A DNA stretch of 44,510 bases from Candidatus Daviesbacteria bacterium RIFCSPHIGHO2_02_FULL_36_13 (lineage in GTDB: Bacteria; Patescibacteriota; Microgenomatia; Daviesbacterales; UBA10151). The position numbers and the translations under genes are program-made. Below the pieces are notes generated by a model that was not told the origin of the DNA, did not search any database, and saw only the letters and a program-made list of their open reading frames with translations. Position 1 is the stretch's first letter, and every line of letters starts with the position of its first letter. The stretch is taken from contig MFCV01000047.1 in the NCBI GenBank assembly GCA_001777015.1, positions 1-44,510 on the forward strand, given 5' to 3'. Positions 18,519-42,109 of this stretch are shown here, in pieces.

Positions 18519-18519
18519 T

Positions 18520-19668: not shown

Positions 19669-19735
19669 TTTAAATTTATGATCGTATTCTAGACGAAATC
19701 ACCAATTAAATCAAAAGATATAGGAGTTTTAAAAA

Positions 19736-20788: not shown

Positions 20789-20789
20789 T

Positions 20790-21356
20790 TTATTTCCTTT
20801 TTAAATTTAGCTTTTTGATTACTTTTGCAGGAGCTCCGACAGCAATTGTCCTATCTGGTATACTTTTAGTAACTACACTACCTGCTCCTATTACTGAATT
20901 TTCCCCTATTGTCACTCCTGCCAAAATTATAACATTTGCACCAATCCAGCATCCTTTTTTTAAAATAACTTCCTTTACTTCATCATACCCTTGATCAATA
21001 AAGGGTTTATTTGGATTTGAAAATGTATGATTATTTGTATATATATGTACTCCAGGACCTAACATAACATCATCCTCAATAGTAATATCAGCACCATCAT
21101 CAGATGCTTCCGTTTGAATATATGAAAATGGCCTAATGATTACTCTTTTACCTATACTTATTTTTGAACAGCCAGTGGCGTATGAACCTGCTCTAAATTC
21201 TGCAGTTTCATCAAAATACTTAAATTTGCTTTTACATAAAGTAACCATCGTTGATTTAAAGAAAAGCTTCCAATAAGATGTTGGTATATCTGGACCAATC
21301 CTATCAGCATTGATCCAATATTTTATCCTTTGGAAAAATTCTAAAAAACTAATCAT
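20790..21356 (-). CDS. Left-handed beta-helix (WbbJ/LacA-like) acetyltransferase
   Basis: Hexapeptide repeats IEDDVMLGPGVHIYTNNHTF, ILKKGCWIGANVIILAGVTIGENSVIGAGSVVTKSIPDRTIAVGAPAKVIKK. Start reset from 21446 to ATG 21356, which leaves an 8 nt overlap with the upstream stop. Confidence 0.88.
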   Translation of the reverse strand: MISFLEFFQRIKYWINADRIGPDIPTSYWKLFFKSTMVTLCKSKFKYFDETAEFRAGSYATGCSKISIGKRVIIRPFSYIQTEASDDGADITIEDDVMLGPGVHIYTNNHTFSNPNKPFIDQGYDEVKEVILKKGCWIGANVIILAGVTIGENSVIGAGSVVTKSIPDRTIAVGAPAKVIKKLNLKRK

Positions 21357-22554: not shown

Positions 22555-22574
22555 TAGTATTGCTTTTAACTTTC

Positions 22575-23228
22575 TTATTTTAAACTATTAGCAAAGTTTT
22601 GGTAAATCATTAACCCCTTGGGTCCACTTTTTTCAGGATGAAATTGTGCAGCAAATATATTTTTCGCTTTGACACTTGAACAATACTCTATTCCTTCATA
22701 ATTTGTATAGGAAGCTACTAATTTAGGATCTTCCGGTACAACATAGTATGAATGAACAAAATACATAAACTCATTATTTGATAAACCTTCCAAATATGAA
22801 TCCTTCCAAGCTTCCTCACTTTTAGAGTGATAAATTTTATTCCAGCCAATCTGAGGAACTTTAACAGCCTGATTGTTTTTATTTAAGGATGGGAATTTAA
22901 CAACTTTACCTTTAATAACATTCAAACCTTTATAGGCACCAAACTCCTCGCTTTCACTAAAAAGTAATTGCAAGCCTAAACAAACTCCTAAAAAAGGTTT
23001 TCCTCTGTCAATAAAGGATTTTATTGAAGTTATTAAATTTAGCTTTTGTAAATTTTCCATTGCGTCTCCAAATGCACCAACTCCTGGTAATATTGCCATT
23101 TGTGCATCTTCCAGATCTGATTTATCTGATGAAATAACTGCATCAAGACCCACAAAATCACAAGCATGCTTAACACTGTATAAATTGCTCATTTGGTAAT
23201 CAATTATTACAACTTTATTTTTACTCAT
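22575..23228 (-). CDS. HisH-like glutamine amidotransferase of the sugar amidation complex
   Basis: VVIIDYQMSNLYSVKHA; ILPGVGAFGDAM; FLGVCLGLQLLF nucleophile elbow; FAAQFHPEKSG. Confidence 0.93.
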   Translation of the reverse strand: MSKNKVVIIDYQMSNLYSVKHACDFVGLDAVISSDKSDLEDAQMAILPGVGAFGDAMENLQKLNLITSIKSFIDRGKPFLGVCLGLQLLFSESEEFGAYKGLNVIKGKVVKFPSLNKNNQAVKVPQIGWNKIYHSKSEEAWKDSYLEGLSNNEFMYFVHSYYVVPEDPKLVASYTNYEGIEYCSSVKAKNIFAAQFHPEKSGPKGLMIYQNFANSLK

Positions 23229-23229
23229 T

Positions 23230-24072
23230 TTAATTTCTACAATCGATATTTTCTTCTTGCAAATAATTTTTTATCTTTTCAATACTTGTCACTTCCACTT
23301 TAGAAAAACTTTGACCACTTTTTAAAAACTCTGTGTTTCCCTCTTCTCCGTTTTCCCTATCTTTATGAGTCTTTAAATAGTTGTAATGAAGTAACGAGGC
23401 TAAAGCCACCGCATCTGCTCCCCCATTTGATATTGCTTTATAAACATCCTCTTTTTTCCCGGCTCCACCACTCGCTATAACGGGTATTGAAACATTTTTT
23501 GAAATCATTTTTGTTAATTCCAAATCAAACCCTTCCCCTGTTCCATCCTTATCAATTGAAGTTAAAAGAATTTCCCCAGCACCAAGTTGTTCGGCTTTTT
23601 TTGCCCATCCTAGTACTTCAACTCCTGTATGCTCTCTTCCATTATCAGTAAAGGCAAGATAGCTTCCATCTTTCTGTTTTATTGCCTCTATTGTTACTGT
23701 TATTGTTGACGAACCAAAAATTCTTGAAGCTTCTTTAATGATTTGTGGGTTATTTATTGCAGCAGTATTTAACGACACTTTATCTGCTCCTGCCCTTAAA
23801 ACACTTCGGATATCGTCAATGGTTCTTAAACCCCCACCTACAGTGAGAGGGATAAATATTTCCCTTGCAGTCTTAGTAATAATTTCTTCTAAGCTATTAC
23901 GCCCAAAAAGACTTGCTACAACATCAATATAAATTAATTCATCAATACCGTTTTCATAGTAATATTTTGCGAATTCTTCAGGCTTTCCTAAAACCCTCAA
24001 GCCTTCTAGATGAATTCCTTTGACCAAATTAGGTCCTTTTATATCAAGCCTACCAATTATTCTGTGAATCAT
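23230..24072 (-). CDS. HisF-like (WbuZ-type) sugar amidation-associated TIM barrel
   Basis: HRIIGRLDIKGPNLVKGIHLEGLRVLG; GGGLRTIDDIRSVLRAGADKVSLNT; GAGEILLTSIDKDGTGEGFD; IPVIASGGAGKKED. Confidence 0.93.
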   Translation of the reverse strand: MIHRIIGRLDIKGPNLVKGIHLEGLRVLGKPEEFAKYYYENGIDELIYIDVVASLFGRNSLEEIITKTAREIFIPLTVGGGLRTIDDIRSVLRAGADKVSLNTAAINNPQIIKEASRIFGSSTITVTIEAIKQKDGSYLAFTDNGREHTGVEVLGWAKKAEQLGAGEILLTSIDKDGTGEGFDLELTKMISKNVSIPVIASGGAGKKEDVYKAISNGGADAVALASLLHYNYLKTHKDRENGEEGNTEFLKSGQSFSKVEVTSIEKIKNYLQEENIDCRN

Positions 24073-24078
24073 TGAGAT

Positions 24079-24867
24079 TTAAATTGCAGTCCACCCACCA
24101 TCAACCATTAATGTGATCCCAGTTATATACGATGCTGCATCTGATGCTAAAAATAAAGTAGCTGAAGCAATTTCTTCTGGTGTACCCATTCTGTTAAGGG
24201 GTGTATTTTTAGAATAATTTTTTACAAATACCTCATTTTGATTATCAAAAATTCCACCCGGACAAACAGTATTAACTCGAACATTAAATTTGCCAAAATA
24301 AGAAGCCAGGTATCGACTAAGATTAATTATCCCTCCCTTAATGGCAGCATATGCCATAGGAGATGTCATGGTTGTACCCTCATAAACTGCAAAATTATTT
24401 CCGACTACTCCATATATAGAACCAAAGTTAATTAGACTCCCTCCCTTTTGATCTTTCATAATTAAACAAACTTTTCTGCTAATCCAGGAATAACTATTAA
24501 GATGCGCATCTACATTTTTTTGCCAGGATTCTAATTTTAGATCTTCTAGCTTATCACTCCAATCTCTAGTTCTAGGATATGCAGCATTTATCCAAACATC
24601 AATTCTTCCATACTTTGAACAAAGTTTATCAATATTCTTATCAATATTTTTTAAATCTGTAATATCAAATTCTTCAAACTCAACATCTCCACCTATCTTT
24701 TTTAAATCCAAGGTAAGTTTTTGCCCCTTAGATTTATCAATATCTAAAATAACAACATTCGCTTTTGCCTCAGAAAATGCTTTGGTAATTTCCGTCCCTA
24801 AAAGACCAACTCCTCCAGTTATAAAAACAGTTTTTCCGCTCATCGAAAATTTATTCATATATTTCAT
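24079..24867 (-). CDS. SDR oxidoreductase (PtmA-like)
   Basis: GKTVFITGGVGLLGTEITKAFSEAKANVVILD; YAAIKGGIINLSRYLASYFG; RVNTVCPGGI; FLASDAASYITGITLMVDGGWTA. Confidence 0.9.
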   Translation of the reverse strand: MKYMNKFSMSGKTVFITGGVGLLGTEITKAFSEAKANVVILDIDKSKGQKLTLDLKKIGGDVEFEEFDITDLKNIDKNIDKLCSKYGRIDVWINAAYPRTRDWSDKLEDLKLESWQKNVDAHLNSYSWISRKVCLIMKDQKGGSLINFGSIYGVVGNNFAVYEGTTMTSPMAYAAIKGGIINLSRYLASYFGKFNVRVNTVCPGGIFDNQNEVFVKNYSKNTPLNRMGTPEEIASATLFLASDAASYITGITLMVDGGWTAI

Positions 24868-25574
24868 AGGCTTATTATATTCTCTTTTACTAAAAATTCT
24901 ATAAATTTAAAATCCATCTCAGAATCAATATCAATTCTTGAGATTTCATCCATTAAGTAAATAATAGAATTATCGCTAACTGGTTTATTATTGTTTTCAT
25001 CAAGTAAATATTCTCTATCATATATATAAATTGAGGCATTCATATCATACACTTTTGGAGCATCCTGACGACGAGAAAAACCACCACTTGATTTACTATA
25101 CTGGGCCTTTCCTTCTGAATCCTCTTCCACCATATTAAAATATGGATTTCTGTGGGCTTTTACTACACTAAAAAGTGTCTTTGGTTTTTTTGACAAAAAT
25201 AAATTAAAAGCTTTTTCTAAATCTTCAACTTTTCTAAGAGGAGATGTAGTATCCAAATCCATCACTGCGTCAAATTTCTTTTTATATATATCTTCACAAA
25301 ATTTTAACGCATGTCTGATTACCCCAACTTTACCAGCAGTATCTGTTGCAAGTTCGCCGGGTCTTAAAAAAGGAACTTCAGCTCCAAATTCTTTAGCAAT
25401 TGTTGCTATTTCTTTTGAATCTGTGCTGACAACTATATGCTGAGCTTTTCCCCATTCTTTAGCCTGTTTAATCGTGTAATATATTAAAGGTTTACCAGCC
25501 AGATCTTTGATATTTTTTCCTTTTACCCCTTTAGAACCTCCCCTTGCGCAAATTGTTAAAAGTAAATTATTCAT
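24864..25574 (-). CDS. Acylneuraminate cytidylyltransferase-like (NeuA/LegF/PtmB)
   Basis: LLLTICARGGSKGVKGKNIKDLAGKPLIYYTIKQA; MDLDTTSPLRKVEDLEKAF. Confidence 0.93.
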   Translation of the reverse strand: MNNLLLTICARGGSKGVKGKNIKDLAGKPLIYYTIKQAKEWGKAQHIVVSTDSKEIATIAKEFGAEVPFLRPGELATDTAGKVGVIRHALKFCEDIYKKKFDAVMDLDTTSPLRKVEDLEKAFNLFLSKKPKTLFSVVKAHRNPYFNMVEEDSEGKAQYSKSSGGFSRRQDAPKVYDMNASIYIYDREYLLDENNNKPVSDNSIIYLMDEISRIDIDSEMDFKFIEFLVKENIISL

Positions 25575-27439: not shown

Positions 27440-28510
27440 ATGTTATCTGATGTTACTATTTTAGTTCCCAGTTTTAATCGCCACAGACAGCTAAAAAGAC
27501 TCTTGGAATATTATAAAGGTTTAAAAACTAACATCCTTGTTGGTGATTCAACCCTAACTGCCTTCCCTGACGCAGGTAAATATAAAAACCTAAACTACTT
27601 TCATTATCCAAATTATCCTTATGCCACAAAATTAGCCTTAATGTATAAAAAAATTAAAACAAAATATGTATTATTTTGTGCAGATGATGATTTTGTTATT
27701 CCAAATTCTGTTAAGGAATGTGTTAATTTTTTAGATAAAAATCCTGACTACGTAGCAGCTCATGGACACTATGTCTTTTTTGAAGATAAAGGCAAAGATA
27801 AAATCCCAGTTTATCCATTCTATCTACACGCAATAGATTTAGATGTAAAATCCAACCTACCATCTGAAAGACTATATTCAATTCTAGCCAATTATATGCA
27901 ATTACTTTACGCTGTAACCAAAACTTCTGTGGCAAGAAAAGTTTTTAATCAATTAGAGAAAAACCGAAAAATTCAAAATGATACGTTGGTTGAATTATTT
28001 CAAGCCATAATGATTTCTATTGAAGGCAAATCCAAAACCCTACCCAGTCTTTATTGTGCCAGAGAAGTAACTCCTGGTTCTGCCAGAACCCGTATCGCCT
28101 CTTTAGAAAATATTGTTACAGAGCCAAAATACAAAAAAGAATACAGTTATTGGTTAAAGGTAATCATTGATTATCTTATGAAAAAACAAAAAATATCAAA
28201 ACCCAACGCTGAGGCTTCTATTAAAGCAGGTGTTAATAATTACTTAAAAGGCTTACTTTTTACCATACCTATTATTAATTTCCACCTATACCCTCTTCAA
28301 ATTCAAAGGTTTATTATTAAAGCCACTTTTGGGTATGCAAAAAAGATTCGTGACTTGCTCATAGCACCCAAAGACTACGCCAATTTATCTAAACACGCTT
28401 TTTCTACTCCTCACGCAAAAAAAGAGTTTGAGAAAATCAAACTGTATATTAAGAAATATGGAGAAAAGTCCTTACTACTTTTTTTAGTCTATCGAGATGT
28501 TTTAAAGTAA
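27440..28510 (+). CDS. GT-A glycosyltransferase (TIGR00180-like)
   Basis: VTILVPSFNRHRQLKRLLEYY; YVLFCADDDFVIPNSVKECVNFL. Track start 27431; ATG 27440 preferred because a TGATAAAAT box ends 7 nt upstream of it. Confidence 0.82.
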   Translation: MLSDVTILVPSFNRHRQLKRLLEYYKGLKTNILVGDSTLTAFPDAGKYKNLNYFHYPNYPYATKLALMYKKIKTKYVLFCADDDFVIPNSVKECVNFLDKNPDYVAAHGHYVFFEDKGKDKIPVYPFYLHAIDLDVKSNLPSERLYSILANYMQLLYAVTKTSVARKVFNQLEKNRKIQNDTLVELFQAIMISIEGKSKTLPSLYCAREVTPGSARTRIASLENIVTEPKYKKEYSYWLKVIIDYLMKKQKISKPNAEASIKAGVNNYLKGLLFTIPIINFHLYPLQIQRFIIKATFGYAKKIRDLLIAPKDYANLSKHAFSTPHAKKEFEKIKLYIKKYGEKSLLLFLVYRDVLK

Positions 28511-29663
28511 GTCCCTGGTGTACACCTATAATCACTCCCTGCTCCATAATATAATCTGCAACAGGATAACTTTTCTGAGAATCCCTATGTGGGATATTCT
28601 TAAATCCCGGCTGTTTTAAGATATTTCCAGTAAAGATTGGTCTAGTTTGTATATTCTCCTTTTCCAAAAATGTTACAAATTCTAATCTAGAAAAGGGTGC
28701 TTCTTTTTTTATGGTCAATGGGAAAACCTGCCACTGGGCTAACGCATTTTCATTCATTTCTGGAACTATAAAATGGTCTGAATATTGACTAAAAAAATCG
28801 AATAATATTTTATAATTTCTCTCTCTAAGTTTTACAAATCCCTTTAATTTATCAAGTTGGGCATTACCAAAAGCTGCTCCAATCTCCATTGGCAAAAGAT
28901 TGTAGGCAACCTCGTCAAAGATAAATTTTCCATCATATGGAATCCCGTCAAGTTTTCTTCCAAAACGCACTTCAATTTTTTCCGATTCTGCAAATATGGC
29001 AGATGTTCTCCCCCAACCCCTTAATACTTTTGCTCTATCTCTTAATTTCTCATTATTAACCATTAACATTCCACCATTCCCACCAGCAGTAATAACATGA
29101 GATCCATAAAAACTAGTTGTTGTTATATCGGAATATGTACCTGTCGGCTTTCCCTTATAAAAACCAACTATAGCATCGCAGGAATCTTCTATAAAAATTA
29201 GATTATGCTTTTTTGCAATATCTCTTAATCTATCCATATCAGGAACATTTCCCATAAGGATTGGGATTAATATTGCCTTAGTCCTTTTAGAAATAGCATT
29301 TTCCACCTTATCAACATTGATAAAATACTTCCCCTCAACAACATCAACAAAAACCGGAATTAAACCTTTTTGAATTAACGGAGCTATAGTTGTTGAAAAT
29401 GTCAGAATTGGTGTAATAATTTCTGAACCAGGAGGAAGCTTCATAAGCTCAATTGCTAAAAGATTTGCAGAGGAGCCTGAATTCACCATAATTCCGTATT
29501 TTTTTCCAAATAACTTCGCAACTCTTTCCTCAAACTCTGCAACTTCACGGCCCATTATAGTCCTGTGTTCTTTTATAACATTCAGTACTCTTTCTTCCTC
29601 TTCTTTGCCATGAACAGCAAGAGCATGGGATATTCGCAGTGGATTTTTGTTATTACTTTTCAT
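28449..29663 (-). CDS. DegT/StrS-fold PLP protein of the NDP-4-keto-6-deoxyhexose 3-dehydratase class (RfbH/ColD-like)
   Basis: Fold motifs MVNSGSSANLLAIELMKLPPGSEIITP and EDSCDAIVGFYKGKPTGT; PLP lysine replaced by His in SFYGSHVITAGGNGGM; LRGWGR...RFGRKLDGIPYDGKFIFDEVAYNLLPMEIGAAFGNAQLDKL aligns with the E1/RfbH region. Start reset from 29687 to ATG 29663. Confidence 0.85.
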   Translation of the reverse strand: MKSNNKNPLRISHALAVHGKEEEERVLNVIKEHRTIMGREVAEFEERVAKLFGKKYGIMVNSGSSANLLAIELMKLPPGSEIITPILTFSTTIAPLIQKGLIPVFVDVVEGKYFINVDKVENAISKRTKAILIPILMGNVPDMDRLRDIAKKHNLIFIEDSCDAIVGFYKGKPTGTYSDITTTSFYGSHVITAGGNGGMLMVNNEKLRDRAKVLRGWGRTSAIFAESEKIEVRFGRKLDGIPYDGKFIFDEVAYNLLPMEIGAAFGNAQLDKLKGFVKLRERNYKILFDFFSQYSDHFIVPEMNENALAQWQVFPLTIKKEAPFSRLEFVTFLEKENIQTRPIFTGNILKQPGFKNIPHRDSQKSYPVADYIMEQGVIIGVHQGLTLKHLDRLKKVVRTFLHIS

Positions 29664-30589: not shown

Positions 30590-31597
30590 ATGATTATTGT
30601 CAGAGCTCCTCTTAGGATAAGTTTTGTTGGCGGAGGTTCAGATTTACCCGATTTTTATCACATGTCTCCAGGGAAAGTTATTTCAGCCACTATTGATAAA
30701 TATGTTTATGTTGCAATCAATCCTGCACCTCTTCTAAAAGGAATCTCTGCACGATATTCCATCAACGAAAATGTTAAAAGAGTTATTGATTTAAAAAATG
30801 ACCGTATCAGAGAAACAATGCTTCATTTAGGAGTTGAAGATAATATGGAAATTGGTACTTTCTCTCACATGCCAGTAGGCACAGGTTTAGGAGGATCATC
30901 CAGTTTTGCTGTCACTTTAGTTAAAGGATTATCTACATATTTGGGCCAAAGACTTGATAAAAAAGATATTGCAGAAATTGCCTGCAAAATAGAGATTGAT
31001 ATATTAAAAGAGCCAATAGGGAAACAGGATCAGTATGCTGCAACTTTTGGAGGGTTTAATACTTTCCAATTCAATTCTGATGAGTCAGTTGATGTAGAAC
31101 CGATTCTACTCGATTATAAAAAAAGCCTAGATCTAGAAAATCATATGTTAGTCTTTTTTACAGGTATTCTAAGAAAAGCTTCTTCTGTATTAAAAGAACA
31201 AAAAACAAATATCCCTCAAAAAATGGATACATTAAAATCTATGGTGGACTTAGTAGAAGTATTTAAAAAGAAACTGATAAGAGGGGACTTTGAAGGATTA
31301 GGCAAATTGCTTCACGAAAACTGGCTTAAAAAAAAGAAACTTGCCTCAAATGTATCTAATTCCGAGATAGACCAACTCTACACTGTAGGTATGAGAAATG
31401 GGGCATGGGGAGGTAAAGTTTTAGGAGCAGGTGGGGGAGGATGTATTCTATTTTTGGCTCCTTTCAAAAAGAAGGAAATTATTAAAGAGGCAGTTCACGA
31501 AATGGCAAAAAAACTTGGGTTATCTGATTTTAAACAAGTTCCAATAAAATTTGTGCACTCTGGCGTAGAAATAGTTTCAAGCAGTTTATTTAATTAA
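30590..31597 (+). CDS. hddA: GHMP kinase, D-glycero-D-manno-heptose 7-phosphate kinase-like (HddA)
   Basis: IIVRAPLRISFVGGGSDLPDFY; HMPVGTGLGGSSSFAVTLVKGL; GAGGGGCILFLAP. Confidence 0.9.
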   Translation: MIIVRAPLRISFVGGGSDLPDFYHMSPGKVISATIDKYVYVAINPAPLLKGISARYSINENVKRVIDLKNDRIRETMLHLGVEDNMEIGTFSHMPVGTGLGGSSSFAVTLVKGLSTYLGQRLDKKDIAEIACKIEIDILKEPIGKQDQYAATFGGFNTFQFNSDESVDVEPILLDYKKSLDLENHMLVFFTGILRKASSVLKEQKTNIPQKMDTLKSMVDLVEVFKKKLIRGDFEGLGKLLHENWLKKKKLASNVSNSEIDQLYTVGMRNGAWGGKVLGAGGGGCILFLAPFKKKEIIKEAVHEMAKKLGLSDFKQVPIKFVHSGVEIVSSSLFN

Positions 31598-31603
31598 GAT
31601 AGT

Positions 31604-32209
31604 ATGGAAAAACATATAAAAAGTTATATTAAAAAAAGCGTTAAGTTACTGCAAAATCTGCCTCATAAAGAAATCGCTAAGGCAATGAATCTTCTACAAG
31701 CTACCTACGAACGGGATGGCAGAATTTATGTATTCGGCAATGGCGGCTCATTGGCTCTAGCAACACACTGGGTAGCAGATTTCAACAAAACCGTTTTTTC
31801 ACACCATTTAGATAAAAACACCAGACGTTTTCAGGCAATCCGTCTTCCCACAACCGAAGAGGAGTTAACAGCTTGGGCAAATGATGTGGGATTTGATATG
31901 GTCTTTGCTGGTCCTTTACGAAATTACCTAAGAGACGGAGATCTTGTTATAGCAATTTCATCTTCTGGGAATTCTCCCAATATAATTAAAGCTGTTGAGT
32001 TAGCAAAAGAATACAAAATTCCGGTAATCGGTGTTTCTGGTTTTGAAGGTGGGGTACTAAATGAATTAGCTGATGTTAAAATTCTAGTAAATACTGACAA
32101 AGGAGAATATGAATTAGTAGAAGGAATTCATGCGGTAATACTACACCTTATTACTAAATACTTTAAAAATTACTTTGATTATTTGGATAAGAATATTTCA
32201 ATTAAGTGA
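31604..32209 (+). CDS. gmhA: Phosphoheptose isomerase-like SIS protein (GmhA)
   Basis: RIYVFGNGGSLALATHWVADFNK; LVIAISSSGNSPNIIKAVELAKE; 201 aa. Confidence 0.87.
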   Translation: MEKHIKSYIKKSVKLLQNLPHKEIAKAMNLLQATYERDGRIYVFGNGGSLALATHWVADFNKTVFSHHLDKNTRRFQAIRLPTTEEELTAWANDVGFDMVFAGPLRNYLRDGDLVIAISSSGNSPNIIKAVELAKEYKIPVIGVSGFEGGVLNELADVKILVNTDKGEYELVEGIHAVILHLITKYFKNYFDYLDKNISIK

Positions 32210-33082
32210 GGCTTCAATTGTCTTTCTAAGACCTTCCTCTATATTTATCCTAGGTTTCCATCCAAATTTTTGAATCTTTGATATATCTGCATAGGCATAT
32301 GCTAAAGAATCCAGATTTTTCTTTTTTGTTTTTTTATATTTCTTCTGCTTACTAAAAGAATTGAAGATTTTTTCAATAATTGTTTGTACACTTGTTAACT
32401 GTCCTGACCCAATATTATAAACTCCTCCCTTTTTGCATTTCAAAAGGAGTGTACAAATTGCATCAGCAACATCTTCCACATAAACAAAATCATTCTGAGC
32501 ATATAGATTTCTTATTTCTGCCTTTTTATTTTCCTTTCCACACTTTATTAAATATGGGATAAGAGAATCTCTCTTTAAACCTGGGCCGTATACATAAAAT
32601 AATCTAATCCAGGTAAAGCTAATATCTCTTTCTTTAGCTATCTCTGAACCTAACCAATTTAAAGCATTTTTTGCAGCAGTAAATGCATTAAAGGGCTTAA
32701 TTTGCATATCTTCAGATAACTTTCCGCTTTGATCTCCGTATTCCCATAAAGTTCCTGTTGCTAAAATTTTTTTACATCCAATTTCAGCTAAAAGCTGTAC
32801 TAGCTCTAAGCTGAAATTGAGATTCTTAATACTATTTTTGCTGCTATAGTCAGGTATCCCTTCCCATGCAAGATGTATAGCCGCATCTGGCATGAATTTT
32901 TTTAGTTCATCCTTCCACTGATTTACATCAGACAAATCACCTTTCACGAAAAGGGTGTTCTTTGAGTTTTCTGAAACATGAAGATTCCTAGTTAAGATAA
33001 GCAGCTTATTTTTTTCGCTTTTGAGTTTTGAAATGACGAATTTACCTATAAATCCAGTGCCGCCTGTAACAAATATTTTCAC
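32198..33082 (-). CDS. NAD(P)-dependent epimerase/4-reductase (extended SDR)
   Basis: MKIFVTGGTGFIGKFVISKLK; IHLAWEGIPDYSS; RLFYVYGPGLKRDSLIPYLIK; VYNIGSGQLTSVQTI. Confidence 0.85.
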   Translation of the reverse strand: MKIFVTGGTGFIGKFVISKLKSEKNKLLILTRNLHVSENSKNTLFVKGDLSDVNQWKDELKKFMPDAAIHLAWEGIPDYSSKNSIKNLNFSLELVQLLAEIGCKKILATGTLWEYGDQSGKLSEDMQIKPFNAFTAAKNALNWLGSEIAKERDISFTWIRLFYVYGPGLKRDSLIPYLIKCGKENKKAEIRNLYAQNDFVYVEDVADAICTLLLKCKKGGVYNIGSGQLTSVQTIIEKIFNSFSKQKKYKKTKKKNLDSLAYAYADISKIQKFGWKPRINIEEGLRKTIEASLN

Positions 33083-33642
33083 TTTATTTTAAACTTTTGT
33101 TTTTTTAGAAATTGTTTAAAACTTTGAGCTTCTAAATCTCTTTCAGAAATAAAACTGGGATTCTTAACTGGCCAAGGTATTTTTAAATCAGGATCATTCC
33201 ATATAATGTTATCATAACTTTCAGGAGTAAAGTATTCATCCATTTTATATAAAACATGACAATTATTGGTTAGTGTACACAAACAAGACCCAATACCTTT
33301 AGGTATATACAGTAAGCTATCTTTCTTATCTGATAACACTATTTGAACCCATTGACCGAAAGTTTTAGATTTAGATCTTAAATCCAAAATAGTAAAAAGT
33401 ACTTCTCCCTGAAGAACTCTTATTAATTTAGTTTCCGCGTATGGCGGGTATTGAAAATGAAATCCCCGTATGGTCCCTTTCTTCTTGCTAAGAGAATGGC
33501 TTTCCTGCACCCATTTAGTTTTTAACCCTAATTTTTTAAATATTTTATCGTCAAAGGTTCTCATGAAAAAACCTCTGGGATCAATCTTCGGTTCTAGTTG
33601 AATTTCAAATAATCCTTTTATTTTTTCTTCTTTTGCTATCAT
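33079..33642 (-). CDS. RfbC/RmlC-like sugar nucleotide 3,5-epimerase
   Basis: DPRGFFMRTFDDKIF; KKGTIRGFHFQYPPYAETKLIRVLQGEVLFTILDLRSKSKTFGQW; WNDPDLKIPWPVK. Confidence 0.9.
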   Translation of the reverse strand: MIAKEEKIKGLFEIQLEPKIDPRGFFMRTFDDKIFKKLGLKTKWVQESHSLSKKKGTIRGFHFQYPPYAETKLIRVLQGEVLFTILDLRSKSKTFGQWVQIVLSDKKDSLLYIPKGIGSCLCTLTNNCHVLYKMDEYFTPESYDNIIWNDPDLKIPWPVKNPSFISERDLEAQSFKQFLKKQKFKIK

Positions 33643-34844
33643 GATTTTGTAATATCTTTTACTATGTCTAAAAGATTCCCTTCTGGTTTTATTAAAATTG
33701 TTTTACAACCAGCAGCATCTCCAGCTTCCTTATCCCGTGTATCATCTCCTACAAAGATTACTTTTGTCAAATCTACAAAATGATCTCTACTTGCAAAGTA
33801 TAATAATCCCGGTTTTGGTTTTCTGCAAATACAACCATCATCCCAATTATGAAGACAGGAATATATTCCTTCTATTTTTCCGCCGTTACTCTTTAAAACT
33901 TTTAGCATTTTTTTATGTATTAATTCAAGGTCTTTTTTAGTCATTGCTCCCCTAGCAATGCCTGGTTGATTTGAAATGATGAATATTTTATATCCTGATT
34001 TAGTTAAAAGTTTTATTGCTTCTATAGAACCTGGTAAGAATTCAAACTCCTCCCATTTTTTAACATAATCCGCTTTAAGAGGCCTCTTATTTATAACTCC
34101 ATCCCTATCTAGAAACATAACTTTTTTAGGGGTAAGAAATTTTTCTGTTAATTTAACCCTTTTCATATCCCCAATTGAATAATATTTTTGATTAGTTAAA
34201 TATCCTGATAATTTTCTCTTTGGAATTAAACTTTGTAAAACCCTTGTTTCAAATTTAGAATTTGATTTAGGTAAAAAGTCTAAAACTTTTTTATTTACTA
34301 TAAAAAATCCAATATCTACCCCATTTAAGTCCTTCTGTGATCTAGTGCTGTCATATTTAATAGCGTATCCATTTTCATCAATAAATAAATTACTCCTCGT
34401 AGATTTGTCTAAATTAGAATAGGCAGTTATTAAAACATCCGATGGATGACCGTTGTAAAAATCTATTAATTTTTTCAGCTGCAGCGGCCAATAATTATCA
34501 CAATACATTAAAAGAAAATGATCATTTAGTAGCTCTTCGGCATTCTTTATCCTTAGTCCACTTTCATTTTCCTGCCCATTCTCATCTAAAAAGGGGGTTT
34601 GCGAGTATTTAATTTTTATACCAAACTTTTTACCATCACCAAAATATTCATTAATTTTTTCACCAAGAAAACCCGTTAAAATTACAACTTCCCTTATCCC
34701 ATTATCTTTAAGTAAATTAATAAGGTGCTCTAAAAATGGCTTTTTATTAACCATTACAAGTGGTTTAGGATTTTTTAAAGTAAACGGGAGAAGTCTTTTC
34801 CCTTGGCCGCCTGCCAGGATGACCGCTTGTTTAATATTTATCAT
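33639..34844 (-). CDS. Fused heptose-1-phosphate nucleotidyltransferase (HddC-like) + heptose-1,7-bisphosphate phosphatase (GmhB-like)
   Basis: N-terminal AVILAGGQGKRLLPFTLKNPKPLVMVNKKPFLEHLI; C-terminal HAD motifs FLDRDGVINKRP, IISNQPGIARG, YSCLHNWDDGCICRKPKPGLL (zinc loop), VGDDTRDKEAG. Start reset from 34898 to ATG 34844. Confidence 0.92.
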   Translation of the reverse strand: MINIKQAVILAGGQGKRLLPFTLKNPKPLVMVNKKPFLEHLINLLKDNGIREVVILTGFLGEKINEYFGDGKKFGIKIKYSQTPFLDENGQENESGLRIKNAEELLNDHFLLMYCDNYWPLQLKKLIDFYNGHPSDVLITAYSNLDKSTRSNLFIDENGYAIKYDSTRSQKDLNGVDIGFFIVNKKVLDFLPKSNSKFETRVLQSLIPKRKLSGYLTNQKYYSIGDMKRVKLTEKFLTPKKVMFLDRDGVINKRPLKADYVKKWEEFEFLPGSIEAIKLLTKSGYKIFIISNQPGIARGAMTKKDLELIHKKMLKVLKSNGGKIEGIYSCLHNWDDGCICRKPKPGLLYFASRDHFVDLTKVIFVGDDTRDKEAGDAAGCKTILIKPEGNLLDIVKDITKS

Positions 34845-35814
34845 TCTTAATAAAATCTCTCCAATATTCAAGTGTGTCCTCAAGAACTGTATTAACATCT
34901 ATCTTTGGTTTCCATCCAGTTAATTTTCTAAATTTTGAGGTATCCCCTATTAATCTAGGAACCGAGGTGGGTCTTACGAACTGAGGATCCTGCACTATTT
35001 TAACTTTACCCACCTTAGACATTTTTATTAACATCCCTAGAATTTCACGGTATGAATAAATATGATCCTTCTCATCAGAACCTATTAGATATAGTTCACC
35101 AGGCTTGCAGTGAGTTATTGCAAGCCAATAAGCTTCAACTAAATCCTTAATATGGGTAAAATTTCTTCTATCTTCTATGTGTCCTACTCTGATAATTGGC
35201 TTTTGTTTTCCCGCCTCTATTCGGGCAATTTGGTAAGCATACCAAGGAATTCCAAAAACATTATCTCTTCTTGGACCTTCATGGTTAAATGCCCTGGTTC
35301 TAATTACATTAAGCCCATATGATCTAAAATAAACATATCCGATATAATCCTGTGCAACTTTGCTCACAGCATATGGATTAACCGGCCTAATAAGGGTATT
35401 TTCATTTATTGGTATTTCATTTTCAGGTATATCACCATATTCCTCTCCTGATCCAGGTATAAAAAATCTTGGATTTATATTTGCCCCCCGAATTGCTTCA
35501 AGAATATTTACAGTTCCTTTAAAATTCACATCCATATAGTGGGATGGATGATCCCAAGAAGGACTTACAAAACTTTCAGCTGCTAAATGAAAAACCCAGT
35601 CAGGATTTATTTTTTTTATGATTTTTCTTATTCCAATTGGGTCAGTTAAATCACAATCAAAAAATTCTACTTTGTCTAATAGATGTGCTACATTCCTAAG
35701 TCTTGATAAGTTCCACCTTTTTAATCCATAAACTTTAACACCTTTTTTCAGTGCATAATCTGCCAGATGAGATCCTACAAATCCAGTAATTCCTGTTATT
35801 AATATTTTTTTCAT
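34831..35814 (-). CDS. GDP-mannose/GDP-heptose 4,6-dehydratase-like (GMD/DmhA)
   Basis: KILITGITGFVGSHLADYALKKGVKVYGLKRW; HLAAESFVSPSWDHPSHYMDVNFKGTVNILEAIR; RTRAFNHEGPRRDNVF; VGHIEDRRNFTHIKDLVEAYWL. Confidence 0.9.
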   Translation of the reverse strand: MKKILITGITGFVGSHLADYALKKGVKVYGLKRWNLSRLRNVAHLLDKVEFFDCDLTDPIGIRKIIKKINPDWVFHLAAESFVSPSWDHPSHYMDVNFKGTVNILEAIRGANINPRFFIPGSGEEYGDIPENEIPINENTLIRPVNPYAVSKVAQDYIGYVYFRSYGLNVIRTRAFNHEGPRRDNVFGIPWYAYQIARIEAGKQKPIIRVGHIEDRRNFTHIKDLVEAYWLAITHCKPGELYLIGSDEKDHIYSYREILGMLIKMSKVGKVKIVQDPQFVRPTSVPRLIGDTSKFRKLTGWKPKIDVNTVLEDTLEYWRDFIKNDKY

Positions 35815-36566
35815 TTTTTATTAACTGCCATCATAATATTAGGTGTCATTGTTTTAAAATAGATACCGCCATTAATAATCATAATTAAAAGTAAAAACAG
35901 ATGTAGGATTTTTTGCAATAATACTCTTATTACATTAATTATACTATAGGTGGGGATTTCATATCCTCTAATCCTTATTTGATAATTCTTTAGCCCTGAT
36001 ACATTTATTAAATCTTTTAAGGATTGTTCTGTAAAACATCCTGTATGCTGCAAATCTCCATATCTTTCTATTAACCCTAAGGGATTATTGCCATTGGGTA
36101 CAACTATTATTAAAAAACCACCTCTTTCTAGATGTTTAAATAAAATCTTTACTGTTTCTGAATATTTATCAATAGGGATATGCTCTAAAACCTGCATTAA
36201 AAAGATAAGATTGTATTTATTTATTTTTTTGTCTAAATCCTCAATCTTTTTTGTTAGAATAGCTTTGTTTATTTTATATTTACTCAAACTATAATCTAAT
36301 ATACCTTGATCATTATCAGCAATATCAATATCAACTACCCCTTTATCATTTAAATAACTTTCAAATTCTCCCATCCCAGGACCTACCTCTAAAACCTTTA
36401 ACTTTTTATATCCTATTTTACTAAGATAACTTCCTAAGTTATAGTCAATATAATCTTTTTTTCTTTTAAATGTTTCAGGTGTATAGAGTTCCTGCAAATG
36501 TCTTATGTAATCACTCATATATTTTATGTATTCTAACAGATTTTCAAAGTCAGACAATATGGTCAT
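35811..36566 (-). CDS. Class I SAM-dependent methyltransferase
   Basis: KLKVLEVGPGMGEFESYLND; YNLIFLMQVLEHIPIDKYSETVKILFKHLERGGFLIIVVPN. Confidence 0.85.
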   Translation of the reverse strand: MTILSDFENLLEYIKYMSDYIRHLQELYTPETFKRKKDYIDYNLGSYLSKIGYKKLKVLEVGPGMGEFESYLNDKGVVDIDIADNDQGILDYSLSKYKINKAILTKKIEDLDKKINKYNLIFLMQVLEHIPIDKYSETVKILFKHLERGGFLIIVVPNGNNPLGLIERYGDLQHTGCFTEQSLKDLINVSGLKNYQIRIRGYEIPTYSIINVIRVLLQKILHLFLLLIMIINGGIYFKTMTPNIMMAVNKK

Positions 36567-36594: not shown

Positions 36595-37374
36595 ATGAAA
36601 GTAGTTATTCTTAGTGGGGGCTTGGGTTATAGACTTAAAGAAGAGACAGAATTTAAACCAAAACCAATGGTATCCATTGGTAATAAACCTATGCTTTGGC
36701 ATATCATGAAAATTTATTCCCACTATGGATTTAATGAATTCATCATTGCTTTAGGTTATAAGGGTGACTATATTAAAGATTATTTTTTGAATCAAAGATA
36801 TTTTGCTGACAATTTTACTATTCATACTAAAAGTGGTTATACGCAACTTCACAGAAATAAGAATGATAAAGAAAAAGATGACTTTAAAATTACCTTTGTA
36901 GATACTGGTTTAGAAACATTACCTGGGGAAAGAATTCTCAAAATCAAAGATTTTATACCAGAGTCTGATGAAGATTTTATGGTTACATATGGAGATGGTG
37001 TTGCAGATATAAATATTGCAGATCTTGTTAAATTTCATAAAAAAAAGGGGACTATTGGAACAGTGACTGGAGTTCATCCAAGAAGCAGGTATGGTTTACT
37101 TGCAGTTGATGAAAAACAACTCGTTTGGCAATTCTTAGAAAAACCCGTATTATCTGACTGGATAAATGGAGGTTTTATGATTTTTAAAAGATCAGTTTTT
37201 AAATACTTCCGCGAAGGAGAATATGAACATCCAGCCATTAAAAGGCTGATAAAGGATAACCAGCTCTCCATATTTACTCACGAAGGATTTTGGCATTCTA
37301 TGGATACTTACTCTGATGTGGATAGTTTAAATCAACTATGGATAGAAAATCCGAAGTGGAAGGTGTGGAAATAA
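36595..37374 (+). CDS. rfbF: Glucose-1-phosphate cytidylyltransferase (RfbF-like)
   Basis: MKVVILSGGLGYRLKEETEFKPKPMVSIGNKPMLWHIMKIYSHYGFNEFIIALGYKGDYIKDYF; GGFMIFKR; FTHEGFWHSMDTYSDVDSLNQLW. Confidence 0.95.
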   Translation: MKVVILSGGLGYRLKEETEFKPKPMVSIGNKPMLWHIMKIYSHYGFNEFIIALGYKGDYIKDYFLNQRYFADNFTIHTKSGYTQLHRNKNDKEKDDFKITFVDTGLETLPGERILKIKDFIPESDEDFMVTYGDGVADINIADLVKFHKKKGTIGTVTGVHPRSRYGLLAVDEKQLVWQFLEKPVLSDWINGGFMIFKRSVFKYFREGEYEHPAIKRLIKDNQLSIFTHEGFWHSMDTYSDVDSLNQLWIENPKWKVWK

Positions 37375-38459
37375 TGGCTCTGAGCAGAGACGTAGAGGAA
37401 GAAGATTTAAAATATATTCACAAAAAAGCAAAAGAGGAATTTGAGGCTCTGTCTAACCATACACTCTTATTCACTGGAGCTAACGGATTCTTAGGTTATT
37501 ACTTTATCAAATCTATTATTGCCTGGAATAATCTTTATCCAGAAAAAAAAATTCAAGTCTATGCACTGGATATTTTCCTTAAAGGTATTCCGGAGTGGCT
37601 ATCTAAAAAAGGCATACAAGTAGTTAAATCTGATGTTACAAAATATAAACTAGCCAAAAGTAAAAAATTCGACTATATTATCCATGCAGCCTCCATTGCA
37701 TCCCCTATTTTTTACCGCCAATATCCAATAGAAACAATCAATGCAAATATTCAAGGCCTTATGAATGTTTTAGAATATATGGTAAAGAAAAGTAAGTCTA
37801 AAGAGGAGGTTAAAGGATTATTATTTTTCTCATCCTCCGAAATATATGGCGATCCCCTAGAAGGAAATATTCCAACTCCCGAAACCTATAGAGGAAATGT
37901 TTCTTGTACCGGGCCAAGGGCTTGTTATGATGAATCCAAAAGATTTGGGGAAACACTTTGTGTAAATTATTCAAGGGTTCACAACCTTCCCATAAAAATA
38001 GCTAGGCCCTTTAATAATTACGGGCCAGGATTAAGAATTACAGATGGAAGAGTTATTCCAGATTTTGCAAATAATATTTTATCTAATAAAAATATCACTC
38101 TTCTTTCCGAAGGATCCCCAACCCGCACATTTTGCTATATAACAGATGCAATTGTTGGATATTTAAAAGTATTAATAAAAGGCAAAAAGGCAGAAAGTTA
38201 TAATATCGGTGTAGAAAATCCTGAAATTTCCATTATTGAGCTGGCAGAAAAAATGAAAAGCATAGCTTTAAAACATTTTGGATATTCTGGAAAAATTATT
38301 AAAGAAAAGAGTGCTGATCAAAATTATCTGACAGATAATCCGAATCGTAGATGCCCCCAAATAGCTAAAGCCCAAAAAGACTTAGATTATAATCCTGAAA
38401 TCACTTTAGATGCAGGACTTAAAAATACAATGCTCTGGTATAAGGATATATATAAATGA
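37374..38459 (+). CDS. UXS-like extended SDR (UDP-glucuronate decarboxylase family)
   Basis: LLFTGANGFLGYYFIKSII; IIHAASIASPIFYRQYPIETINANIQGLMNVL; FFSSSEIYGDP; ACYDESKRFGETL; ARPFNNYGPGLRITDGRVIPDF; NPNRRCPQIAKAQKDLDYNPE. Start reset to ATG 37374 (TAATG overlap with rfbF). Confidence 0.85.
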   Translation: MALSRDVEEEDLKYIHKKAKEEFEALSNHTLLFTGANGFLGYYFIKSIIAWNNLYPEKKIQVYALDIFLKGIPEWLSKKGIQVVKSDVTKYKLAKSKKFDYIIHAASIASPIFYRQYPIETINANIQGLMNVLEYMVKKSKSKEEVKGLLFFSSSEIYGDPLEGNIPTPETYRGNVSCTGPRACYDESKRFGETLCVNYSRVHNLPIKIARPFNNYGPGLRITDGRVIPDFANNILSNKNITLLSEGSPTRTFCYITDAIVGYLKVLIKGKKAESYNIGVENPEISIIELAEKMKSIALKHFGYSGKIIKEKSADQNYLTDNPNRRCPQIAKAQKDLDYNPEITLDAGLKNTMLWYKDIYK

Positions 38460-39811
38460 AAATAGCTATTGTAGGTACAGGTTATGTTGGACTTGTCACG
38501 GGAATATCTCTTGCTCTACAAAATCATAAAGTTATTTGTGTTGACAACGATAAAAATAAAGTTTCAAAAATTAATAAAGGAAAATCCCCTTTTTTTGAAC
38601 CCGATATTGATAAGTATCTTAAAAAGGTACTTAAAGAACGAACTTTGAAAGCTACAAATGATTTGCAAGGCGCTATCCTAGAATCAAATGTAACAATAAT
38701 TGCTGTCGGTACACCCACTATTAATAGCAAGATAGATTTATCATTTATAAAAACTGCATCCGCTCAAATAGGAGAATCTTTAGGAAAAGTAAAAAACTAT
38801 CATGTAATAGCTGTTAAATCAACTGTTTTACCAGGAATAACGGAAAAAGTAATCAAACCAATACTGGAAAAATATTCAAAGAAAAAAGTAGGAGAATTTG
38901 GATTATGTATGAATCCTGAATTTTTAAGAGAGGGCAATGCCATAGAAGATGCCCTAAATCCAGATAGAATTATTATTGGGCAAATAGATGATAAAAGCGG
39001 AAAAGAATTTGCAAAAATTTATTCAAAATTATCAGTTCCAAAAATATTTACAAATCTTGCAACAGCAGAGTTCACAAAATATGCAGCAAATTCACTATTT
39101 GCCACTCTTATTAGTTTTTCAAATGAAATTTCAAGGATCGCAGAAACTACAGAAAATGTTGATGTTTTAGATGTATGGAAAGGCGTACATCTTGATAAAA
39201 GATTAAGCCCCATAATCAATAGTCAGAGAATAAAACCTGGAGTTTTAAGTTATATCCTTTCAGGTTGTGGTTTTGGAGGAAGCTGTTTCCCAAAAGATAT
39301 AAAAGCTCTGTCTTCGTTTGCAGATGAAATAGGTAGTGAGGGAGGACTTATTAAAAGTGTTATTGACATTAACACCACTCAACCCCAAAGAATGATTTTA
39401 CTCTTAAAGAAGGCTATGGGCGCAGCAAATTTAAAAAACAAAAAAATTGCTGTCCTAGGTCTCACCTTTAAACCAAACACAGATGATATACGAGAGTCTG
39501 TTGCCCTTCCCATTATCGAAACTCTACTTTCGCAAGAAGCTATCGTTGTAGCTCATGATCCAATGGCATACAAGGAAAATATATCTCCTCAACTTACCAA
39601 TCTTCCAATTACCCTTGCAGATACTTTAAAAGAAGCTTTGGAAAACGCAGAAGCTGCTATTGTTGTTACAGCATGGGATGAATATATAAAATTATCTCCC
39701 GAATTTTTTATTAAAATGATGAAAAAACCTATTGTTATTGATGGAAGAAGAATATATGATAAACACTCTTTCTTAAAAAAGGGAGTAATTTATAAAGGAA
39801 TTGGAACATGA
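38456..39811 (+). CDS. UDP-glucose/GDP-mannose dehydrogenase family (Ugd/TuaD-like)
   Basis: MKIAIVGTGYVGLVTGISLALQNHKVICVDND; ESNVTIIAVGTPT; LSGCGFGGSCFPKDIKAL with catalytic Cys; AVLGLTFKPNTDDIRESVALPII. Confidence 0.95.
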   Translation: MKIAIVGTGYVGLVTGISLALQNHKVICVDNDKNKVSKINKGKSPFFEPDIDKYLKKVLKERTLKATNDLQGAILESNVTIIAVGTPTINSKIDLSFIKTASAQIGESLGKVKNYHVIAVKSTVLPGITEKVIKPILEKYSKKKVGEFGLCMNPEFLREGNAIEDALNPDRIIIGQIDDKSGKEFAKIYSKLSVPKIFTNLATAEFTKYAANSLFATLISFSNEISRIAETTENVDVLDVWKGVHLDKRLSPIINSQRIKPGVLSYILSGCGFGGSCFPKDIKALSSFADEIGSEGGLIKSVIDINTTQPQRMILLLKKAMGAANLKNKKIAVLGLTFKPNTDDIRESVALPIIETLLSQEAIVVAHDPMAYKENISPQLTNLPITLADTLKEALENAEAAIVVTAWDEYIKLSPEFFIKMMKKPIVIDGRRIYDKHSFLKKGVIYKGIGT

Positions 39812-41088
39812 GTTTAAGTTATCCTAAGCATCATTTAATAAAATCAGGACCTATTTATAGTTGTCAGGTTTGCAACTCAAAAAAGCTTCATACTGTTTTA
39901 GATCTAGGCCATCAACCGCTCTGTGATACTCTCCTTTCAAAAGAGACAATTAATGAACCGGAAAAAACATATCCTTTGAGGATGATTTGGTGCGAGAACT
40001 GCACTTGTGTACAATTAGATTACTGTGTAGATGGATCTGAGGTATATCACCCGGATTACCCTTACAGAAGCGGGATTACTAAAGAACTTGCAGAATATCA
40101 AAAAAAAATTAGTAATTCACTTATTGAAAGATACAACCTTACTTCTAAAGATTTAGTTATAGATGTAGGATCCAATGACGGAACTCTTCTTAGTGGTTTT
40201 AAAGAGGCCGGTATAAAAGTTGTTGGGGTAGAACCTACTAATATTGCTAAAATCGCTAACGCAAATGGCATTCTAACAATTCAATCTTTTTTTGATATTA
40301 AGACTGCCAGTAAAATTAAGGAAAAATATGGACCAGCTTCTTTGGTAATAACTACAAATACTTTTGCACATATGCAAACATTAGGTGAATTTATAATGGG
40401 AGCATATAGCCTTTTAAGTAAAGACGGTGTATTTATTAATGAGACACATTATCTTCTCGATGTAATTGCAGGCGGTCAATTTGATACTATCTATCACGAA
40501 CATCTAAGGACATATTCACTAAAAGCTTATATTAAATTGTTTGAGCAATACGATTTCACTATTACTGATGTTGAGAGAGGAGATCGATACGGCGGCAATA
40601 TCCGAGTCTATGCTACAAAAGGAAAAGGAAAGAAGGTAAACCCCTCTGTAAAGAGGCTGCTACAATATGAGAAGAAATTTGGCCTTGGAAAACTTTCTAC
40701 CTTTCAAAAATTTGCAGATCGTGTTAAAAAGGCTCGTTTGGAGTTTATGGACTTTTTGATTAAAACTAAAAAGACTGGTAAATTGGTCGTAGGAAATTCT
40801 TGTCCTGCCAGAGCTTCAACTCTATTAAATTATTACGGTGTAGATAGCGAGCTTTTACCCTATATTGCTGAGCAGTCCACTTCTTTGAAATTAAATAAAT
40901 TCTTACCTGGCAAACACATCCCCATTATCAATAACCAAAGATTAATAGATGAGCAACCAAATTTCGTAGTTATACTGGCATGGCATTATGCAAAACCTAT
41001 TATGGAACAATTAAAAAAACGTGGGTTAAAATCAGATTTTGTAATTCCCCTTCCTGATTTCCAAATAGTTAAAAATTCAAAAGTATAA
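39808..41088 (+). CDS. TylC3-type sugar C-methyltransferase with N-terminal zinc-binding domain
   Basis: CQVCNSKKLHTVLDLGHQPLCDTLL...MIWCENCTCVQLDY; VIDVGSNDGTLLSGFKEAGIKVVGVEPTNIAKIAN; GVFINETHYLLDVIAGGQFDTIYHEHLRTYSL. Confidence 0.92.
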   Translation: MSLSYPKHHLIKSGPIYSCQVCNSKKLHTVLDLGHQPLCDTLLSKETINEPEKTYPLRMIWCENCTCVQLDYCVDGSEVYHPDYPYRSGITKELAEYQKKISNSLIERYNLTSKDLVIDVGSNDGTLLSGFKEAGIKVVGVEPTNIAKIANANGILTIQSFFDIKTASKIKEKYGPASLVITTNTFAHMQTLGEFIMGAYSLLSKDGVFINETHYLLDVIAGGQFDTIYHEHLRTYSLKAYIKLFEQYDFTITDVERGDRYGGNIRVYATKGKGKKVNPSVKRLLQYEKKFGLGKLSTFQKFADRVKKARLEFMDFLIKTKKTGKLVVGNSCPARASTLLNYYGVDSELLPYIAEQSTSLKLNKFLPGKHIPIINNQRLIDEQPNFVVILAWHYAKPIMEQLKKRGLKSDFVIPLPDFQIVKNSKV

Positions 41089-41101
41089 TACTATAAATAA
41101 A

Positions 41102-42109
41102 ATGATAAAAGTTGGTATAGTTGGTTCAGGTTTTGGTCTTTATGGCTTACTCCCTGCCTTTAATTCAACTCCGAATTGTAAGGTAATTTCTATTTGTGGA
41201 AGCGAAAGCGAAAGAATGCTTGATTATTGTATGAGCATTGGTTTAAAAAAAATTTATAGAAGTTGGCAGGAAATGCTGGATAAAGAAGATTTGGAGGCAA
41301 TAGCCTTGGCTGTTACGCCCAACGCCCAGTATGAAATTGCTAAAGCTGCTATCGAAAAAGGATTACATATTTTTGCAGAAAAGCCGCTTACTGCTACATT
41401 AGAACAAGCTCAAGAACTTCTTCAGTTAGCCAGTCAAAAGAAAATAGTACATGCAATCGATTTTCTTTTTCCAGAAATTGAAGAATGGAAGAAGGTTAAG
41501 AAACTGCTTGATAAAAAAGTATGCGGCAATTTAAAACAAATAAATTTAAAGTGGGATTTTTTAAGCTATGATATTAAGAATCAAAAATCCTCTTGGAAAA
41601 CAAATACAGCAGAAGGTGGTGGGGCATTATCCTTCTATTTCTCCCACTCGTTATATTATCTGGAATACTTTGCAGGTAAGATATTTGATTTAAAAAGTAG
41701 ATTATCCTACGCATCGAAGAGTCCTAATGGTGGAGATGTTGGAGTAGATTTACAATTAGAATTTGAGAATGGAGTTTTGTGTAATGCACATATTAATTGC
41801 AATTCAAGTGATGTAAATAAGCATCAATTAGAATTTATATGTGATGAAGGTACAATTAACTTAGAAAATGAAAATAATATTACCTCAAATTTCATTATAA
41901 AAATTAAAAAGAACGGAGAAGAAAAACAATTACCCCTTCCTCATGAGCAAAACATAGAAGGTGAAGATGAAAGAGTAAGGATTGTTCGAAAATTAGCTAC
42001 TAGGTTTATTAACTCAATAATTCAGGAAAAACAATTTATCCCTTCATTTAATGAGGGTGTAAGAGTTCAAGAGTTGATAGAAAAAATAAGGAATCAAAAT
42101 GTCACATAA
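41102..42109 (+). CDS. Gfo/Idh/MocA-like oxidoreductase
   Basis: KVGIVGSGFGLYGLLPAF; IALAVTPNAQYEIAKAAIEKGLHIFAEKPLTATLEQAQEL. Confidence 0.92.
   Translation: MIKVGIVGSGFGLYGLLPAFNSTPNCKVISICGSESERMLDYCMSIGLKKIYRSWQEMLDKEDLEAIALAVTPNAQYEIAKAAIEKGLHIFAEKPLTATLEQAQELLQLASQKKIVHAIDFLFPEIEEWKKVKKLLDKKVCGNLKQINLKWDFLSYDIKNQKSSWKTNTAEGGGALSFYFSHSLYYLEYFAGKIFDLKSRLSYASKSPNGGDVGVDLQLEFENGVLCNAHINCNSSDVNKHQLEFICDEGTINLENENNITSNFIIKIKKNGEEKQLPLPHEQNIEGEDERVRIVRKLATRFINSIIQEKQFIPSFNEGVRVQELIEKIRNQNVT

Follow-up and report, generated by a model that had tools for sequence, protein, structure and literature searches.

We analysed a window of 44,510 nucleotides (bases 1-44510 of a 74054-base contig) from Candidatus Daviesbacteria bacterium RIFCSPHIGHO2_02_FULL_36_13 (genome of 0.96 Mb, 96% complete), in which a large glycan locus harbors a cassette of heptose genes together with genes for a GDP-mannose 4,6-dehydratase (GMD)-like enzyme, an RmlC-like epimerase and a short-chain dehydrogenase/reductase (SDR). 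All the open reading frames were confirmed at the positions, and in the families, given by the initial annotation (Table 1). The HddA gene and then the GmhA gene are encoded on the plus strand, and the minus strand carries, from 36566 down to 32198, the genes for a methyltransferase, the GMD/RMD-like SDR, an HddC-GmhB fusion, the RmlC-like epimerase and the second SDR in this order. The successive overlaps of these five genes (4, 14, 4 and 4 bp) indicate a single translationally coupled operon, which starts upstream of 35814 with the methyltransferase gene; a role of its product in O-methylation of the sugar is possible. The same genome encodes a transketolase (PF00456) as a source of sedoheptulose-7-phosphate, and its own RmlABCD set and GMD on another contig (C45), leaving the cassette copies free for another sugar. 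The plasmid collection gave no match, and the phage comparison gave only SDRs of Synechococcus phages (35-37%).

Table 1. Genes of the heptose cassette and the nearby 3-dehydratase gene
Feature	Position	Strand	Supporting evidence
RfbH/E1-like 3-dehydratase, dependent on pyridoxamine phosphate	28449..29663 (or 29687)	-	NF011936 RfbH 341 bits; PDB 3bcx 251 bits
HddA-like GHMP kinase	30590..31597	+	NF049969 HddA best NCBIfam model, 182 bits (cut-off 600); PF00288/PF08544
GmhA-like sedoheptulose-7-phosphate isomerase	31604..32209	+	TIGR00441 98.9 bits (cut-off 209); SIS domain
Extended SDR, proposed C4-reductase	32198..33082	-	PF01370 137 bits; FTAAK at residue 134
RmlC-like C3 and/or C5 epimerase	33079..33642	-	TIGR01221 158.9 bits, above 155.75 cut-off
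HddC-GmhB fusion	33639..34898	-	NTP_transferase residues 25-238; GmhB/HAD-IIIA residues 258-404
GMD/RMD-like SDR, proposed GDP-D,D-heptose 4,6-dehydratase	34831..35814	-	GDP_Man_Dehyd best Pfam, 270 bits
S-adenosylmethionine methyltransferase	35811..36566	-	Methyltransf_23 52 bits; 4-bp overlap with GMD-like gene; 51% ortholog in locus L015

The four activities of GDP-heptose synthesis are each encoded with the expected motifs, that is, PVGTGLGGSSS and LGAGGGG in the HddA-like kinase and LAGGQGKRLLPFT, DRDGV and GDDTRD in the HddC-GmhB fusion. HddA, GmhA and GmhB do not reach the curated cut-offs of their equivalog models; RmlC alone passed such a cut-off, and the other names are based on motifs, neighborhood and conservation. 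The kinase would convert D,D-heptose-7-phosphate into the alpha-1,7-bisphosphate, while the N-terminus of the fusion, for which a start at 34844 (Met19) is more likely than that at 34898, is the predicted guanylyltransferase and its C-terminus the predicted 7-phosphatase. GmhA, HddA and HddC-GmhB may thus cover every step from sedoheptulose-7-phosphate to GDP-D,D-manno-heptose, and the complete route proposed by the initial annotation is supported by domains, motifs, neighborhood and conservation. Fused HddC-GmhB homologs were found in other candidate phyla radiation (CPR) genomes, G031 (59%) and G088 and G054 (both 36%), and, as near-full-length tblastn matches of 36-53%, in most of the loci from other phyla described below. 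A literature search, made in one collection of papers, found none on an HddC-GmhB fusion.

The GMD-like enzyme and its relatives

Alignment of the GMD-like enzyme identified S122-Gly-E124, Y148 and K152 in the active site, corresponding to the Ser, Glu, Tyr and Lys of dehydratases. In addition, it carries a PRR motif (R182 and R183 within GPRR), at the position of which GMDs and the GDP-heptose 4,6-dehydratase 7us5 (34% identity to the window enzyme) have PRR or IRR. Two RMDs (2pk3 and 6x3b) have GPGQ at this site, so the RMD signature is absent from the window enzyme; 2pk3 has the same fold and the highest sequence score, but differs in GPGQ and in a shorter nucleotide-binding loop. The AlphaFold model (pLDDT 90.5) gave query-normalised TM-scores of 0.93 to 7us5, 0.91 to the GMD 1n7h and 0.89 to 2pk3, although the Foldseek E-value puts 2pk3 first. 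In the phylogenetic tree the window clade (17 sequences, support 94/81), in which E124, Y148, K152, R182 and R183 are invariant, is separate from both the characterised GDP-heptose 4,6-dehydratase and the reductases, and DmhA stands with the GMDs on long branches. The catalytic triad alone was rejected as a marker, as it does not separate dehydratases from RMDs.

For identification of relatives, genomes were scanned with peptide patterns derived from the GMD-like protein, a procedure that samples close relatives only. The scan gave 19 loci, 18 of which contain true relatives (58-71% identity) from about nine phyla, with hosts among Giovannonibacteria, Elusimicrobia, Pseudomonadota, Omnitrophica, Deltaproteobacteria/Myxococcota, Planctomycetota, Nitrospinaceae, Gemmatimonadetes and Clostridiales. 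An HddC(-GmhB) gene lies at most 3.5 kb from the GMD-like gene in all 18, and HddA is present in 15 within the stretch examined. RmlC-like epimerases and C-methyltransferases of Methyltransf_13/14 type use 4-keto sugars as substrates, and another GDP-sugar dehydratase was found near the GMD-like gene in L033 only, 8 kb off. Since these neighbors need a 4-keto sugar and no other candidate source lies nearby, the GMD-like enzyme is proposed to be the dehydratase, that is, a GDP-heptose 4,6-dehydratase, a placement for which only motifs, model fit and context speak.

A C-methyltransferase of this type lies at most 4 kb from the GMD-like gene in 11 of the 18 loci (L024, L026, L027, L028, L030, L031, L032, L035, L036, L037 and L038), directly downstream of it in L028, L036 and L037, which suggests C-methyl-branched 6-deoxy-heptoses in these loci. 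We found no paper on C-methyl heptose pathways in the collection searched. A second GMD-like family, about 47% identical (L131-L142), is common in the same class, where 55 of 382 genomes have a match in addition to the present one; the 12 paralogs taken from it as a contrast set are situated mostly in rml/UGD/UXS islands, and only that of L136 is near HddA/GmhA.

The epimerase-SDR pair and the sister operon

The RmlC-like protein retains the catalytic His, Lys, Tyr and Asp (RGFH, ETKLIRV, HVLYK and SERD aligned), including the His-Asp dyad. The equivalent of His120 of the dTDP-sugar enzymes is Ser in the window and Pro in L015, and Asn in seven homologs from heptose loci (L023, L024, L028, L029, L034, L036 and L037); the Campylobacter heptose epimerases MlghB and DdahB have Asn121, and the N121S mutants of both are active on heptose (PMC7949155). 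Orthologs of the RmlC-SDR pair are present in the heptose loci L015, L023, L024, L028, L034, L036 and L037, and in all 8 aligned orthologs of the SDR, these loci included, the catalytic Tyr is replaced by Phe, Ile or Leu and the Lys is retained. Foldseek search with the SDR gave generic epimerase/dehydratase matches and no functional assignment.

In L015, the corresponding operon of genome G031 from the same family, the order HddA, GmhA, HddC-GmhB, RmlC and SDR is conserved at 53-76% identity, beginning with HddA (60%). RmlC (63%) and the SDR (53%) are retained, the GMD-like enzyme is absent, and its place is taken by a GmhA-SDR fusion of 546 amino acids (L015 1234-2874), the GmhA part of which is 76% identical to that of the window. 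The fused SDR carries an 'FGxSPRxR' stretch, resembles the heptose-modifying type that oxidises C4, and is related to a protein of locus L019 that we take to be Cj1427-like. Since RmlC and the SDR are retained while this enzyme differs, the sister operon seems to have swapped its C4-oxidising enzyme within a constant set of surrounding genes. The gene overlaps, the gene order in G031 and the presence of HddC beside every GMD-like gene of the 18 relatives together indicate that the cassette was not grouped by chance.

Evidence for and against a 6-deoxy-heptose pathway

The analysis showed the genes to be present, coupled and conserved together, with intact catalytic residues in the proposed dehydratase and in the epimerase. 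We consider it likely that the cassette supplies a surface glycan with an activated 6-deoxy-heptose, most probably a GDP-6-deoxy-heptose; the substrates throughout, the stereochemistry and the identity of the sugar formed are inferred. The GMD-like enzyme would oxidise C4 and eliminate water across C5/C6 to yield GDP-6-deoxy-4-keto-lyxo-heptose, the RmlC-like protein would epimerise C3 and/or C5, and the SDR would reduce C4. Neighborhood, phylogeny and active site agree with the dehydratase-epimerase-reductase logic of the initial annotation, in which the label of reductase has to be qualified for the missing Tyr; its label of GMD/DmhA-like is supported by motifs, model fit and context, but the closest sequence is an RMD.

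Several observations weigh against this pathway. The best PDB bit score of the GMD-like enzyme was obtained for the RMD 2pk3 (230 bits vs 186 bits for 7us5), and its Gly between Ser and Glu is Ser in GMD and DmhA and Asp in RmlB. The PRR motif was rejected as a sufficient marker of dehydratases, as it is also present in the roughly 47% identical CPR paralogs from rml/UGD islands. The RmlC-like protein scores 148 bits to dTDP-rhamnose epimerases and about 50 bits to the Campylobacter GDP-heptose epimerases. The SDR has Phe134 in place of the catalytic Tyr, leaving the Ser/Thr-Tyr-Lys triad incomplete with Lys kept, and its best PDB matches are epimerases and dehydratases at about 24% identity. 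At the Tyr site, MlghC of C. jejuni, which is active as a GDP-heptose C4-reductase, carries Phe136 (PMC7949155), and the Tyr-less SDR is therefore compatible by analogy with a role as reductase; the loss of Tyr is in itself no proof of this function.

The GMD-like enzyme might instead be a C4-reductase of RMD type, acting on a 4-keto-heptose made elsewhere, for instance by the GMD on C45, in which case the product would be a 6-deoxy-heptose of D-manno/rhamno type and the RmlC/SDR pair would have another job. The RMD 2pk3 is indeed the top sequence match of both the window protein and its relatives, GSGEEYG of the window is similar to GSSEEYG of RMD, and a true GMD is encoded elsewhere in the genome. 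RMDs lack PRR, however, and the model fits 7us5 better; furthermore, 17 of the 18 related loci are without a nearby second GDP-sugar dehydratase, yet their RmlC or C-methyltransferase needs a keto sugar, and the sister operon substitutes an SDR of C4-oxidising type. We therefore regard the reductase assignment as improbable, and since 2pk3 outscores 7us5, a reading from the sequence search alone would be misleading here.

It is still less probable, indeed hardly to be expected, that the minus-strand epimerase and SDR are mere neighbors of the heptose genes and serve a dTDP- or CDP-hexose route of rhamnose or 6-deoxy-talose type. This would agree with RmlC passing the dTDP-rhamnose epimerase model and giving its top scores to dTDP enzymes, but a full RmlABCD set is already present on C45, the RmlC gene overlaps by 4 bp with HddC-GmhB at one end and with the SDR gene at the other, and orthologous RmlC-SDR pairs occur in the seven heptose loci listed above for this pair.

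The 3-dehydratase, known pathways and implications

The initial annotation had also tentatively joined the neighboring 3-dehydratase to the heptose route and knew of no 3,6-dideoxy-heptose as an established product. The latter view is out of date, since in C. jejuni HS:5 and HS:11 such sugars are made by the four activities considered here (PMC10440746), and the former is not borne out by the relatives of the enzyme. Like RfbH/E1, the 3-dehydratase has an E1-like scaffold and His in place of the pyridoxal phosphate-binding Lys, but the Cys ligands of the [2Fe-2S] cluster are absent, both here and in the aligned members of a CPR clade of RfbH/E1-like enzymes (L117-L127), in which His is kept. 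ColD likewise has no Fe-S cluster, but its score is the lower one (173 bits against 251 bits). Among the 11 relatives that share 58% identity or more, 6 are near an RfbF-type cytidylyltransferase gene and 1 is beside heptose genes; 3 of the 6 are also accompanied by an RfbG-like dehydratase (TIGR02622 195-210 bits, cut-off 278). The right arm of the window (36595-42109, plus strand) carries genes for an RfbF-like cytidylyltransferase (at 36595), a UXS-like SDR, UGD, a C-methyltransferase and Gfo/Idh proteins, and it is mirrored in L122 by a closely similar set (60-75%) including RfbF, UXS, UGD, 3-dehydratase and C-methyltransferase. Given this mirroring and the frequent RfbF neighbors, the 3-dehydratase probably belongs to the cytidylyltransferase module and not to the heptose route, with the caveat that no CDP-glucose 4,6-dehydratase (RfbG) was found above the cut-off in the genome, the best match being the GMD-like gene itself (94.6 bits).

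A 3,6-dideoxy-heptose product is thus possible but not favoured. The full GDP-3,6-dideoxy-heptose route as in HS:5, in which the 3-dehydratase would act on GDP-4-keto-6-deoxy-heptose before the RmlC-like protein, then a C5 epimerase, and the SDR, has established chemistry (PMC10440746), and the four activities lie within 7.4 kb if the 3-dehydratase is counted. This route agrees with the catalytic His and the loss of Fe-S cysteines as in ColD-type enzymes, with the lack of an RfbG above cut-off, and with L123, where a 3-dehydratase stands beside HddC-GmhB, HddA and GmhA. We nevertheless judge it unlikely, because the window enzyme is encoded outside the operon, its relatives and L122 point to RfbF, and L015 and L023 contain RmlC and the SDR with no 3-dehydratase in the stretches examined. 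An RfbH/E1-like 3-dehydratase lacking Fe-S cysteines also sets the window apart from the pathway of HS:5 and HS:11. Locus L019 (7929-16337) combines heptose genes with a cysteine-retaining RfbH-like enzyme and the presumed Cj1427-like SDR, and is a possible 3-deoxy-heptose locus.

Elsewhere in the window, positions 2-1908 encode a phosphoenolpyruvate mutase fused to a cytidylyltransferase-like domain and then a phosphonopyruvate decarboxylase-like protein, a possible source of phosphonate decoration of the glycan. Positions 15642-25574 form a cluster for a nonulosonic (legionaminic-type) acid, with NeuB-, NeuA-, PtmA- and WbpG/HisH/HisF-like genes and a formyltransferase gene (17727-18518).

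In the capsular 6-deoxy-heptose pathways of C. jejuni, GmhA, HddA, HddC and GmhB supply GDP-D,D-heptose to a 4,6-dehydratase, an epimerase and an SDR reductase (PMC10680097, PMC7949155). The same gene logic (DmhA/DdahA/WcbK, DdahB/MlghB and DdahC/MlghC) is found here, and MlghC shares the replacement of Tyr by Phe. In contrast to C. jejuni, where GmhB is encoded in the lipopolysaccharide cluster, GmhB is fused here to HddC; the dehydratase forms a separate clade, the epimerase is RmlC-like and not Campylobacter-like, and the host is a small-genome bacterium of CPR type, as its size and the similar size of relatives from its class suggest. The literature search on heptose in CPR found one genomic survey, which mentions ADP-heptose in Paceibacteria (PMC9166423). 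While the pathway is of a known kind, the combination of this dehydratase clade with the fusion, the Tyr-less reductase family and the host is new.

As a tentative proposal, the GMD-like enzymes beside HddC(-GmhB) may form a family, spread over several phyla and so far overlooked, of GDP-heptose 4,6-dehydratases with an RMD-like scaffold, whose partners, either RmlC plus the Tyr-less SDR or a C-methyltransferase, would lead to undescribed 6-deoxy-heptoses, in other phyla including C-methyl-branched ones. If this is true, modified GDP-heptoses recur across about nine phyla, including CPR-type genomes of about 1 Mb, and not only in the capsules of Campylobacter, Yersinia and Burkholderia, and the family-model name 'GDP-mannose 4,6-dehydratase' is wrong for the enzymes in these loci. 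The Tyr-less reductase and the enzyme swap in the sister operon would allow direct tests of how dehydration, oxidation and reduction are divided among SDRs.

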